DNA of 39,458 bases from a virus: positions 1 through 39,458 of IMG/VR virus record IMGVR_UViG_3300030102_004232; one strand, given 5' to 3'. Shown here piece after piece: positions 14,891-20,171 of the stretch. The translations under genes and the position numbers were made by a program. The first letter of the stretch is position 1. The number at the start of each line of letters is the position of its first letter. Below the pieces are notes generated by a model that saw only the letters and a list, made by a program, of their open reading frames with translations, searched no databases and was not told the origin of the DNA.

Positions 14891-17371
14891 TTACTTCCTC
14901 CTTCTCTTAGCAGCTCTACGTTTTCCTTGAGCAGCTAAGTTAGTTTGCATTATATTCTGAATGTTTTCATTAAGATTTTCAGTAAAATCAGGAACTTGTT
15001 TATCTGTTCCTGTAATTTTCTTTCCACGTTCTATATCTATTTGTTTTTGTTGTAATTCAAACTGTGCTCTTTTTCTTCTTTGTTCTATATCAGCTGGGCG
15101 ATTACTTCTTCTAGCAGAACCTAATTCTCTAGCTCCCATATCTAAATAGTCATCATCAAAAGTTGTAACCAAATCTCCTTCTACATTTCTTACTTCTTTT
15201 TCTAAAGCAGTACTACCTTTTTCTTTAACATCAAATTTAATAACATCTGTAGCTCCTCTTGGACGACTTAAATCCACAGTAGATACTGGTAAGTTATTCA
15301 TCTTAGCAAAATCTGCCTGTTCATCTTTTACAACACGAGATAATGTTCCATCTCTTTTCTTAGTCGCATACATGAATCTAGCTGGTCTACTTGCAGGTTT
15401 TCCTACCAGAGATTCGATGAAATCAAAATTATCATAAGACTGTAAAACAGGTAATGTTATACCTTTTTCTTTTTCTAAAATAGTATTTAATTCTTTAGCT
15501 ACTGAACCATAATCAGCTCTACTTCCTTTTCTTTTAATATTTCCTTGTGCTCTATATGTTGCATCTAAAAGCACGTTTCTTTGTAGTCTTACTTTTCCTG
15601 TTAAATCTTTTCCTGTAGCAGTTTCTAGAATCTGTAAAGGAGCATTAACTTTTGTTTGAGATATTTTAAATAAAGGTGCTCGATACAGTTTTCCTGTTTG
15701 AGTTTTACGTGTTGCTTGTAATTGTAAATTGCTCTTTGGATCTATCACAGGTTCAACATTGTCTATACCCATTGATTGCATCATAACAAAATTTTGTTGA
15801 TCAGCAGCAGAAACTTTCAAAGGTTTTCCTTGTGCTGTTTTTAGTAAATCTGCTTCTTTAATATCTTTAACTTCCAATCCTTGTAAATCAGCAATCTGAG
15901 AACCACGGGGAGTATTTTTATATTTCAAAGCGTACATAGATTCTGCTAAAGGAGCTTCGGTTACTCCTCCAACAAGTTGTCCTTTTATTTGAAATTCAGG
16001 TGTGATGTTTGGTTTACCACCCACGTTTCTTACTGTCTTATATACCCTACTATCTTCAGGAATAAAATCTACACGAGCACTATCTGCAACTGGTCCTACT
16101 ATCTTTTGATATTCTCCACTTAGAGCTTTTCCAGTATCAACATATTCAAGAACTTCACTTCTTAACTGTTTTATATTTGGAGATTTAACTGCCTCGGCTT
16201 GTTCAAGATCGTTGATAGCTTTTTGTTTATTAACTTGGAAAGGCACTTGTAATTCTCTTGGTTTTCCTTCCAAAATATCTTTTACTGCTTCAGGATTTTT
16301 CTTTAATAAAACTTCTCCAAATGTTTGATCTCCTAATGCTGGTATACTTAGATCTTCTTTAGTTACAACTCTCAATTCTTCTCTTGGTTTGGTTACAAAA
16401 GAAGCAGGGTCACTATATAACTGATCCCACTTTTTAGTCCATTCTTGTCTCTTAAGTGCAAACTGTTCACCCTCAACTTTACTTGCTCTTAGTACATTTT
16501 GTCTAAGTTTATCGAGATCTTCTCCTTCTACAACTGTCTTAGGTGCTTGAGGTAAATATTTAACACCTATACCCTCTTCTGCTAATTGTATATCCTGAGC
16601 CAATATACTTTTATCTACTGTTTCAGTTGGAGTATCTACTCCTCCAATACCTCTTTTTATTTCTCCTGGCTCTGCACCTGGAATATTAATAGTAGTAGCT
16701 TGGGTAAGTTGTCCTCTTTCATTAAACTGAGGTTTAACAAGAGGTGTACCAGCTTTCGCAAAAGATTGTATATAAGTATCTGCTCCAACTTGTAAAGGAT
16801 TATAAGCTGGATTTAAAAACTTTAAATCTCCAGAACTAACATAAGCTTCAACACGAGTATCAATATCTACTTTTGGTAAACCAGATTTCATCAACAAGTC
16901 ATAACGCCCTCCCTCTTGTCCTACATCTCTTCGTGGTCGAACTCTTGTAGGTGCTGCTTCTACAGTTTCAACTGGAGCCTTTTCAACCACAGTTGGGGAT
17001 TCTACTATTTTGCTGGGTTTTACTTCATTTAAATCTTTTTGTAACTTTTGGTTGTTTCTTTGGTTTGCTCTTCTAGCTGCTTTCTTAGTTTCGGGGCCAG
17101 GATCAAATGAAATTTTTTTAGGTGGAGTTTGTGGTCCTCTAAAACGCTCAGATATCTTTTTACCTCCAATAATACTTCCTAATATTCCAGCTCCTAATGC
17201 AACCAAACCTAAATCTCTTCCTTCATTATCTTCAGGTGAAGGTGCTCTAAGTTGATTACGCTTGAAATCAATGACATCAGCCGCCACTGCTGCTCTTTCT
17301 CTGTCATTCTCTGGAGGCTTTGTACCAGTAGCACGACTATATGAATAGAAATCGGCTGGTTGAAGTAACAT
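14891..17371 (-). CDS. 826-aa large virion protein, first gene of the minus-strand module
   Basis: One hydrophobic Gly-rich segment near residues 53-72 (GLVALGAGILGSIIGGKK) is followed by a long hydrophilic region of mixed sequence, ending in a basic tail (GKRRAAKRRRK). No lysozyme, transglycosylase or peptidase motif is evident. The size and membrane segment fit a large internal or ejection protein, or a tail component, but I do not recognise the family. The start is ATG 17371 without a good Shine-Dalgarno sequence. It faces the plus-strand 88-aa gene across 40 bp, so the two promoters must lie in or near that gap. Confidence 0.7.
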   Translation of the reverse strand: MLLQPADFYSYSRATGTKPPENDRERAAVAADVIDFKRNQLRAPSPEDNEGRDLGLVALGAGILGSIIGGKKISERFRGPQTPPKKISFDPGPETKKAARRANQRNNQKLQKDLNEVKPSKIVESPTVVEKAPVETVEAAPTRVRPRRDVGQEGGRYDLLMKSGLPKVDIDTRVEAYVSSGDLKFLNPAYNPLQVGADTYIQSFAKAGTPLVKPQFNERGQLTQATTINIPGAEPGEIKRGIGGVDTPTETVDKSILAQDIQLAEEGIGVKYLPQAPKTVVEGEDLDKLRQNVLRASKVEGEQFALKRQEWTKKWDQLYSDPASFVTKPREELRVVTKEDLSIPALGDQTFGEVLLKKNPEAVKDILEGKPRELQVPFQVNKQKAINDLEQAEAVKSPNIKQLRSEVLEYVDTGKALSGEYQKIVGPVADSARVDFIPEDSRVYKTVRNVGGKPNITPEFQIKGQLVGGVTEAPLAESMYALKYKNTPRGSQIADLQGLEVKDIKEADLLKTAQGKPLKVSAADQQNFVMMQSMGIDNVEPVIDPKSNLQLQATRKTQTGKLYRAPLFKISQTKVNAPLQILETATGKDLTGKVRLQRNVLLDATYRAQGNIKRKGSRADYGSVAKELNTILEKEKGITLPVLQSYDNFDFIESLVGKPASRPARFMYATKKRDGTLSRVVKDEQADFAKMNNLPVSTVDLSRPRGATDVIKFDVKEKGSTALEKEVRNVEGDLVTTFDDDYLDMGARELGSARRSNRPADIEQRRKRAQFELQQKQIDIERGKKITGTDKQVPDFTENLNENIQNIMQTNLAAQGKRRAAKRRRK

Positions 17372-17411: not shown

Positions 17412-17678
17412 ATGTCGAGCACATCTAGTCGTGATAGCATTATTAAAAGGATACAACTAGCAATACGATTAATGGACATTGAAGATCGTAAGAAAAAAGT
17501 CGAAGGATTAAAATCTATCAAATCCAAGGCGATTGATATGGCAACAAAGGGAAAAGATTCTTTAGAAATCCGGGATTTTGTCGGAAATGCTACCAAAGAG
17601 CTTGCATATGAACTTCCAGATGAAGAAGCATTCACAAAAGCTGTAAATGCTAGTAAAATGTACCGAGGAATGAAGTAA
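17412..17678 (+). CDS. 88-aa hypothetical protein, divergent from virion module
   Basis: A helical, lysine-rich protein (MSSTSSRDSIIKRIQLAIRL at the start, MYRGMK at the end). No family recognised. It is the first plus-strand gene, reads away from the 826-aa gene and is followed after 23 bases by a clear intrinsic terminator, so it is probably a single-gene transcript. No strong ribosome-binding site precedes the ATG. Confidence 0.6.
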   Translation: MSSTSSRDSIIKRIQLAIRLMDIEDRKKKVEGLKSIKSKAIDMATKGKDSLEIRDFVGNATKELAYELPDEEAFTKAVNASKMYRGMK

Positions 17679-17910: not shown

Positions 17911-18093
17911 ATGAGACAGCTTCGTTCTCTATTCCAATTGATCTGTTCATTACTAGCTTTTGCTTTTGAAGAGTATCCTATTACATCTCTCTTTGTTATG
18001 GGAGCAATTCTTTACGGTTTACATGTTTGGAGTGGAACGCCTTGGTTCGTTAACTACTCTGACATGGGACAGTACGCTCGATGGAGCTTCTGA
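17911..18093 (+). CDS. 60-aa membrane protein
   Basis: I chose ATG 17911 because GGAGG lies 6 bases upstream; a longer frame from 17854 has no such signal. The product has two hydrophobic stretches (about residues 8-20 and 23-40, FVMGAILYGLHVW). The stop codon TGA (18091-18093) falls inside the 5' strand of the tRNA-like hairpin that follows. Function unknown. Confidence 0.6.
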   Translation: MRQLRSLFQLICSLLAFAFEEYPITSLFVMGAILYGLHVWSGTPWFVNYSDMGQYARWSF

Positions 18094-18127
18094 GATTGGT
18101 GAAGGAAGGTTCGATTCCTTCCCTCAG
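18090..18127 (+). ncRNA. tRNA acceptor/T-arm-like minihelix 1
   Basis: CTGAG (18090-18094) pairs with CTCAG (18123-18127), and GGAAGG (18104-18109) pairs with CCTTCC (18117-18122), contiguous on the 3' side, giving 11 bp. The loop TTCGATT (18110-18116) matches the canonical tRNA T-loop. Nine unpaired bases (18095-18103) replace the D and anticodon arms. A T-arm stacked on an acceptor-like stem is the minimal recognition shape for tRNA-processing enzymes such as RNase P. A second element of the same design lies at 18678-18732. No complete tRNA can be drawn and no CCA end follows directly. Confidence 0.55.
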
Positions 18128-18677: not shown

Positions 18678-18732
18678 GCTGAGTAACATGGTACTAGCTT
18701 TTCGCTAGGGTAGGTTCGATTCCTACCTCAGC
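18678..18732 (+). ncRNA. tRNA acceptor/T-arm-like minihelix 2, with variable-arm-like hairpin
   Basis: GCTGAG (18678-18683) pairs with CTCAGC (18727-18732); GTAGG (18710-18714) pairs with CCTAC (18722-18726) around the T-loop TTCGATT (18715-18721). An additional hairpin CTAGC (18694-18698)/GCTAG (18704-18708) sits where a long tRNA variable arm would be. The D and anticodon arms are absent, so this cannot be a decoding tRNA. A CACCCA/TGGGTG hairpin (18736-18756) follows before the next gene, as a GCCCA/TGGGC hairpin follows element 1. Confidence 0.55.
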
Positions 18733-18969: not shown

Positions 18970-19076
18970 TACCCCTCAAAATTATGCATATGGGATACCC
19001 TCTGATTCTCCCTCTCTGCTCGTCTGGGCAGACTGGGGGACTCACACCCCTGTTCAACTTAACTTAGGAGACTATT
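18970..19076 (+). promoter_or_regulatory. Structured leader of the 87-aa gene
   Basis: No gene. It contains a GTCT/AGAC hairpin with a GGGC loop (around 19022-19033) and a following GGGG...CCCC hairpin (around 19035-19050). The ribosome-binding site TTAGGAG lies just before ATG 19077. It is the third gene in this region with an unusually long, GC-rich folded leader. Confidence 0.35.
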
Positions 19077-19543: not shown

Positions 19544-19685
19544 AGCTTATTTACATGAGCGTCAAGACGAGATCAATCGTCAGGCAGTAGAAGATATGGA
19601 ATGTAAAGAGTTCCATGATCAACTGCGAAACGAATTTGAAACTCGTCTATCAACTGAAAACCCTAACAACTCAGATCCCAAATGA
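19530..19685 (+). CDS. 51-aa hypothetical protein
   Basis: ATG 19530 (or 19536, two codons later) to TGA 19683-19685. Highly charged and helical (AYLHERQDEINRQAVEDME). It overlaps the previous gene by 14 bases and the next by the ATGA arrangement, which supports real coding. No family recognised. Confidence 0.55.
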   Translation: MSMIKAYLHERQDEINRQAVEDMECKEFHDQLRNEFETRLSTENPNNSDPK

Positions 19686-19756
19686 CATCATTCATTATCT
19701 TATTCTGTGTCGTCATCCTCCTATTTATATTCCTAAAGAATATAGGAGCTTACTGA
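19682..19756 (+). CDS. 24-aa single-span membrane peptide
   Basis: ATG 19682 overlaps the previous stop (ATGA). It encodes MTSFIILFCVVILLFIFLKN plus four residues: one membrane span with a short polar tail. Its TGA (19754-19756) lies within stem II of the hammerhead ribozyme, so ribosomes finishing this peptide would run over the ribozyme's 5' strand. Too short to be certain, but the gene overlap and composition favour it. Confidence 0.45.
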   Translation: MTSFIILFCVVILLFIFLKNIGAY

Positions 19757-19816
19757 CGAAACCCTCTTCGGAGGGTCGGTGGGAGATGACCGCCCCACCC
19801 TGATGAGTCAGGTCAT
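19753..19816 (+). ncRNA. Type II hammerhead ribozyme
   Basis: All core elements are present in order. Stem II 3' strand CTGAC (19753-19757) is followed by GAAA (19758-19761). Stem III is CCCTC/GAGGG (19762-19766, 19771-19775) closed by a TTCG loop. The cleavage triplet GTC is at 19775-19777, with the cut expected after C19777. Stem I is GGTGGG (19778-19783) with CCCACC (19794-19799), then core CTGATGA (19800-19806), then stem II 5' strand GTCAG (19807-19811). Every stem is perfectly paired. Loop I ATGACC (19786-19791) can also pair with GGTCAT (19811-19816), a plausible stabilising pseudoknot. Cleavage would separate the small genes upstream from the 110-aa gene at 19839. Confidence 0.9.
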
Positions 19817-19838
19817 TGTTCAATTCATTCATTAACTT

Positions 19839-20171
19839 ATGGAACAATCCAAACAGCCAAGGAAGGCTACCCCAGAGCAAAATGCTAACGTTGTCAAACA
19901 AGTTAGCGATATTGTTATAGATCGAATAATAGACGAGGAGGTGGAGAAGCACCTAAACACACCTGAAACTCGGACAAAGTTGGAGATGATGGCTGTATAC
20001 AGACAGCTAACTGAAAACACTAACTACACAAGAGATGCAAGTAAGAATGTTCTTGATGAACTAGTCAAACTTACTGACCTTGTTTTACTTTATAAATCTC
20101 GTCTGGAACAAGTTGAGAAAGACAACAAAGATCTGGTAGACCGTGTTAACAAGTTGGAGAAGCTTAAGTAA
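19839..20171 (+). CDS. 110-aa coiled-coil protein
   Basis: Acidic and helical. The C-terminal 50 residues (for example LVLLYKSRLEQVEKDNKDL) show coiled-coil heptads. No family recognised. No Shine-Dalgarno sequence; the leader after the ribozyme contains GTTCAATTCATTC, the TTCAATT motif that precedes several other genes here. Ends one base into the next start. Confidence 0.65.
   Translation: MEQSKQPRKATPEQNANVVKQVSDIVIDRIIDEEVEKHLNTPETRTKLEMMAVYRQLTENTNYTRDASKNVLDELVKLTDLVLLYKSRLEQVEKDNKDLVDRVNKLEKLK

Follow-up and report, generated by a model that had tools for sequence, protein, structure and literature searches.

A type II hammerhead ribozyme at a stop codon between small genes of an S-EIV1-like cyanophage: a proposed intercistronic processing site

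The window analysed here, a viral record of 39,458 bases, carries at positions 19753-19817 of the plus strand a type II hammerhead ribozyme that is complete down to the 3' strand of its pseudoknot, as recognized both by reading the sequence and by Rfam. The phage genes that flank it point the same way (the upstream frame ends at 19756 and the downstream ORF starts at 19839, both +), and the ribozyme is on their coding strand. We consider it probable that, in this S-EIV1-like cyanophage, the element serves for self-processing between cistrons, with catalysis, an effect on message stability and a coupling to translation as predicted properties. Because related phages either keep the ribozyme beside exchanged neighbours or substitute other structured RNAs for it, its most likely role would be to cut a long message into separate ones. 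The initial annotation had suggested that a small-gene transcript might be divided in this manner, and we adopt the idea as a proposal.

Anatomy and genomic context of the ribozyme

The elements of the ribozyme and the two genes that adjoin it are as follows.

19682-19756 (+): microgene of 24 amino acids with one hydrophobic stretch, MTSFIILFCVVILLFIFLKNIGAY; tblastn identities of 71% (G034) and 62.5% (G049)
19753-19757 with 19807-19811 (+): stem II (5' strand CTGAC), 5 bp, perfect, from the sequence and pair counts
19758-19761 (+): GAAA, from the sequence
19761-19776 (+): stem III hairpin, 6 bp (19761-19766 with 19771-19776) and a TTCG loop; two compensatory pairs relative to relatives
19777-19778 (+): predicted cleavage site, between C19777 (position 17) and G19778, following GTC at 19775-19777; from hammerhead chemistry
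19778-19799 (+): stem I hairpin, 6 bp (19778-19783 with 19794-19799); two compensatory pairs
19800-19806 (+): catalytic core CTGATGA, from the sequence
19786-19790 with 19812-19816 (+): pseudoknot between ATGAC of loop I and GTCAT of the 3' tail; one compensatory pair
19839-20171 (+): downstream gene of 110 amino acids, an ORF whose ATG lies 21 nt past the ribozyme

A complete type II hammerhead with perfect stems had been described in the initial annotation, and this description is borne out: the core is intact, stems I, II and III comprise 6, 5 and 6 bp, respectively, and the covariance-model search named there as a check yields a match to Rfam family RF02276 (Hammerhead_II) at 19754-19817 (+) with 37.5 bits, above the gathering score of 37 (with all of Rfam searched against the window, E = 3.2e-4; with the RF02276 model alone and the whole record, E = 7.6e-8). 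RF02276 is the sole Rfam family that exceeds its own cut-off within the window; the margin is just 0.5 bit. According to a structural descriptor, stems I and III are closed by loops and stem II is open. The assignment to the type II class reflects the RF02276 score, the CTGANGA/GAAA/UH-site signature, the compensatory changes and the pseudoknot between loop I and the 3' tail. The window copy shares with RF02276 the core, the circular permutation (open stem II), the stem lengths, the C at the cleavage site and the pseudoknot, and there is no essential difference between them, whereas its relatives in the lineage fall under the Rfam cut-off. Hammerhead ribozymes cut between the C at position 17 and the next nucleotide, and this position is occupied by C in 150 of 155 phage ribozymes among the matches listed.

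The minimum free energy of the window ribozyme is by itself not distinctive (z = -1.6); it is the core motif and the comparisons that support a ribozyme. A strict structural descriptor detected nine real hammerheads in the lineage, whereas 1.14 Mb of Markov-shuffled lineage sequence gave no match of any hammerhead type. By these comparisons we take the window element to be confirmed as a real type II hammerhead, ordinary as a molecule, for which self-cleavage is predicted. An identity as a retrozyme or viroid-like circular RNA element was considered and rejected; the record contains one hammerhead, with protein genes on both sides.

The portal-like protein and the DNA polymerase encoded in the window are 72% and 64% identical, respectively, to those of Synechococcus phage S-EIV1 (KJ410740, 79 kb). 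On the strength of these identities the window is assigned to the S-EIV1 cyanophage lineage as a genome fragment, probably about half of a genome of S-EIV1-like size. No close DNA relatives were found in the phage collection by megablast with 12 kb, nor did a distant-mode search of that collection with the 171-bp junction return a meaningful match. A conserved gene (17412-17678), situated near the point where the leftward structural genes and the rightward genes diverge, precedes the ribozyme by ~2.1 kb. The 24-codon frame upstream of the ribozyme overlaps the preceding gene and, being conserved in G034 and G049, is probably a real microgene, whose product likely spans the membrane once. Its own TGA stop codon (19754-19756) falls inside stem II, in agreement with the initial annotation. 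The 110-residue protein encoded downstream shows a weak match to phrog_12808 (function unknown; E = 2.7e-4), and no relatives of it were confirmed in viral contigs. The leader of the downstream gene is G-poor, without a clear Shine-Dalgarno sequence. At the ribozyme junction there was no promoter match on the plus strand, and matches to the consensus promoter were no more numerous than in shuffled sequences.

Conservation, stop-codon contact and exchange at the junctions

Ten type II hammerheads were identified in seven phages of the lineage: one each in the window, G034, G047 and G049, and two each in G050, G051 and G055. This count combines Rfam with the descriptor, which on its own gave nine, including four unlisted by the Rfam search; the G049 copy, in which stem II is preceded by an additional base, was missed by the descriptor and caught by Rfam. 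The hammerheads of G034 and G047 (core CTGACGA) were unreported by the Rfam search. Rfam under-calls type II hammerheads in phages. The core CTGANGA is conserved in all ten lineage copies. S-EIV1 itself shows no hammerhead by Rfam, nor by the descriptor in the 38-kb stretch scanned, and none was seen in most of the lineage members searched; the hammerhead is thus dispensable.

Covariation was evaluated in an alignment of four sequences (the window, G049, G034 and G047), since MAFFT misaligned stems III and I between two subgroups when applied to all eight single-type lineage hammerheads. In this four-sequence subgroup 97.6% of the cells are paired, and both partners have changed in 6 of the 21 pairs, including one pair of the pseudoknot; since G034 hardly differs from G047, few independent events stand behind these cells. 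Compensatory changes relative to the relatives occur in stems I, II and III as well as in the pseudoknot. The covariation score of the four sequences is 0.405 versus 0.204 after shuffling, and the signal is lost when the partner strand is slid by 1-3 columns.

The initial annotation had also proposed an activating pseudoknot between loop I and the sequence just past stem II. Its main part is upheld by comparison: none of its pairs is broken in the four sequences, it is retained with different letters in G050 and G051, and, among the matches listed, a ribozyme's own loop I and tail can form at least 4 bp in 54% of 155 cases, compared with 18% when tails are swapped. The possible sixth pair (C19791-G19811) fares less well, as G19811 is also part of stem II and the pair would compete with it.

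Relative to the first nucleotide of the ribozyme, the upstream stop codon ends between -3 and +4 in every lineage copy, ten out of ten, and the next ATG occurs at +84 to +89 in eight of them (both G055 copies deviate). The genes beside these hammerheads are mostly unrelated from phage to phage. The window and G049, for example, share an isolated 93-bp block of similarity (82% identical by blastn) that extends from the start of the ribozyme to the ATG, and the genes on either side of this block are unrelated. In the blastn comparison of G034 with G047, similarity continues from the upstream region across the ribozyme and breaks off at the start codon of the downstream gene. We read these comparisons as a ribozyme-plus-leader block that persists while the genes around it are exchanged.

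The element itself is also replaced at orthologous junctions. The 24-residue microgene is followed by the hammerhead in the window, and its orthologue in G049 by a tRNA-like element that includes a T arm. Following an OB-fold/SSB-like gene (so labelled from a reading of its sequence and not from a family search), there is a hammerhead in G049, G034 and G047, and a stop-codon hairpin in most of the 11 other relatives examined. A block that survives the exchange of both flanking genes, and is replaceable at orthologous junctions, provides direct comparative evidence for operon punctuation. Such evidence bears on the role of hammerheads in phages, which has been in question since their discovery, and natural swaps at the same junction within one lineage offer a clean test case.

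The contact with the stop codon is not confined to this lineage. A pattern scan of IMG/VR yielded at least 120 loci, with 147 distinct type II hammerheads among the matches listed. An ORF stop ends 1-8 nt before C11.1 in 98 of these 147 (67%, versus 4% expected), and when one hammerhead per contig is counted, again among the matches listed, contact is observed in 57 of 87 (binomial p ~2e-57). The pattern fixes the letters of the core and nothing upstream of C11.1, and therefore should not create the stop signal. The placement of the window ribozyme had been regarded as unusual, which applies to its detail and not to its principle: contact with an upstream stop is typical of phage type II hammerheads, and the rare feature is a stop lying wholly inside stem II and ending directly before C11.1 (0 of 147 among the IMG/VR matches listed). 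Contact in two thirds of the phage type II hammerheads, among the matches listed, suggests a link between termination and cutting. The phage contigs also include hammerhead arrays, with 11 copies in L052 (G090), 9 in L059 (G092) and 7 in L013 (G075).

Proposed mechanism, alternatives and precedents

In the proposed mechanism, the transcribed polycistronic RNA would fold and cut itself between C19777 and G19778. Of the two products, the upstream message would keep its stop codon and have stem III, capped by UUCG and bearing a 2',3'-cyclic phosphate, as its 3' terminus. The downstream message would have the stem I hairpin, carrying a 5'-OH, at its start, and the ATG of the 110-residue gene would follow 61 nt later. 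With hairpins capping both new ends, the stability of each cistron should be separate from that of the other. As the upstream stop is placed in or against stem II, a ribosome terminating there would sit over the 5' part of the ribozyme, and cutting may have to wait for its release. The tight fit to the stop codon could reflect genome compaction alone. A broader version of the proposal, which we advance tentatively and at somewhat less than even chances, is that the early small-gene operon of the lineage is punctuated by interchangeable, stop-codon-fused RNA processing elements (hammerheads, UGA-paired H hairpins and partial tRNA-like elements), that the junction blocks outlast replacement of the flanking genes, and that translation termination gates the cut.

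The stop in or against stem II, seen in all ten lineage copies and in 67% of the phage copies among the matches listed, and the location of the 5' part of the ribozyme within the footprint of a terminating ribosome would also suit a regulated ribozyme, in which cutting is governed by a ligand, by a protein or by whether the upstream cistron is being translated, i.e., a switch as opposed to constant punctuation. We judge this unlikely, given that compaction also yields stop contact and that the short stems and small closing loops hold no conserved aptamer-like insert. The exchange of genes at the edges of the ribozyme (the window/G049 island and the break between G034 and G047 at the start codon) might instead indicate a mobile or recombination-anchoring spacer, a block for gene exchange whose cleavage is of little consequence. 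A homology block, however, would not need the compensatory changes that preserve the stems, core and pseudoknot, and other structured RNAs occupy the same place; this explanation therefore appears quite improbable.

The ribozyme might mainly generate special RNA ends or circles, whereby the 5'-OH and cyclic phosphate would be substrates for a ligase such as RtcB and a stable or circular mRNA could arise between two hammerheads. G050 and G051, each with two hammerheads ~850 nt apart that flank a single 253-residue gene, would be arranged appropriately, as would the arrays of up to 11 copies in other phages. The chances of this explanation are nevertheless slim, since the window has a single copy, and the 2011 study, which sought spliced and circular products, found none (PMC3088659). 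The narrow Rfam margin and the undistinguished folding energy might finally be taken to signify a decayed, inactive relic or a chance match, which is highly implausible in view of the intact core positions, the lack of descriptor matches in shuffled sequence and the compensatory changes in the relatives.

The favoured reading, an intercistronic self-processing site, has a direct precedent. Type II hammerheads were described by Perreault et al. (2011), together with the pseudoknot, the influence of the pseudoknot on rate, and clusters around single prophage genes (PMC3088659). Their examples included hammerheads around ardA in Agrobacterium and one 13 nt upstream of the helicase start codon in haloviruses HF1/HF2; cleavage was observed in vitro and, for Agrobacterium, also in E. 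coli, and transcript processing was proposed, the biological functions being called unproven (PMC3088659). The initial annotation was thus correct that hammerheads are known in some phages; gene-flanking copies, arrays and the processing idea had all been published in 2011 (PMC3088659), and an intergenic site is not in itself novel. The gene-flanking hammerheads of that survey are like the window copy in their siting between phage genes, their presence on the coding strand and the proposed processing of a long transcript. The lineage adds stop contact, a conserved stop-to-start block and documented replacement, whereas cleavage was shown in the earlier work and is here predicted from sequence alone. 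The words "stop codon" do not occur in the main text of PMC3088659, and we found no report of stop-codon fusion or swapping in the open-access literature, the scope of which excludes subscription papers. The swapping of elements and the general fusion to stop codons would therefore be new; type II hammerheads, the pseudoknot and gene-flanking arrays have been known since 2011.

Other RNA elements at the lineage junctions

Three further elements of the window belong to the types named above.

19003-19044 (+): H-type hairpin, closed by TGA..TCA and with a symmetric internal loop, found by the descriptor; here away from any ORF's own stop
18678-18732 (+): tRNA-like element at another junction in the same gene run, with a 6-bp acceptor-like helix and a T arm
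18090-18127 (+): second tRNA-like element, with a T-arm motif; overlaps the stop of the gene ending at 18093

The H element starts at or near a stop codon and has the layout TGA-N-(7 bp)-internal loop-hairpin-internal loop-(7 bp)-N-TCA, such that the UGA stop is paired with UCA next to a 7-bp stem and a symmetric internal loop. The descriptor gave 67 matches, against 8.5 expected in shuffled sequences; 40 of the 67 coincide with the UGA that ends an ORF, a position that ~11% of TGA triplets occupy. Because the descriptor forces pairing, covariation was tested on an alignment with slid and shuffled controls: the 14 lineage copies, themselves chosen by the descriptor, have 97.8% of cells paired, five pairs changed on both sides and a covariation score of 0.459 versus 0.176 shuffled. 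A scan of four relatives with Rfam, in which matches up to E = 1 were considered, gave none to the element. H elements were observed in early regions of the S-EIV1 lineage, e.g., on the reverse strand of L268 (1643, 2183, 2509, 3010 and 3455) and on the plus strand of L274 (926-3315). A downstream copy of the H 5' strand follows the hairpin and could re-pair after cutting.

By analogy, the H element may resemble an RNase III site of the T7 type. Between the small early genes of phage T7, RNase III sites are structured RNAs at which a polycistronic message is split, leaving hairpin-capped ends. The T7 sites require host RNase III, whereas the hammerhead would cut itself; the H hairpins of the lineage may be the closer analogue. 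Another parallel is the tRNA punctuation of mitochondria, in which structured elements at gene borders set the places of cutting and genuine tRNAs are the substrates of RNase P and RNase Z; the elements of the lineage, in contrast, are partial and putatively tRNA-like.

Both T-arm elements of the window score under tRNA thresholds: that at 18678-18732 has a sub-threshold Rfam tRNA-Sec score of 19.8 bits (E = 1.9), that at 18090-18127 is weaker, and the tRNA-like reading of the two is a weak one. ARAGORN found no tRNA genes in the window. A tRNA-Leu(taa) recurs in most lineage members (L257 at 17077-17165, L258, L260-L262, L264, L265 and L267-L274) and is absent from the window and from the searched stretches of G034, G047 and S-EIV1. 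Partial tRNA-like elements that have neither D nor anticodon arm were also noted in junctions of L256 (~8882, -), L257 (~8874, +) and L276 (~881, +). In the window, G049 and G033, the tRNA-like element is followed by a conserved GTGGAGATGGG-like hairpin.

Another repeated junction element, GTTCAAGCGGGTCCGGAGTGTGCAATCCCTCCGGCAG..., occurs in L257 at ~670 and ~230 nt ahead of the hammerhead that comes first there (9865), and in the reverse complement of L258 near its start; in G050 the leader that follows it (CACCACTAAGAACATG) is the one that also follows the hammerhead. An S-EIV1-like phage also carries a glutamine-II riboswitch (L272, 1572-1628, +; 47.5 bits).
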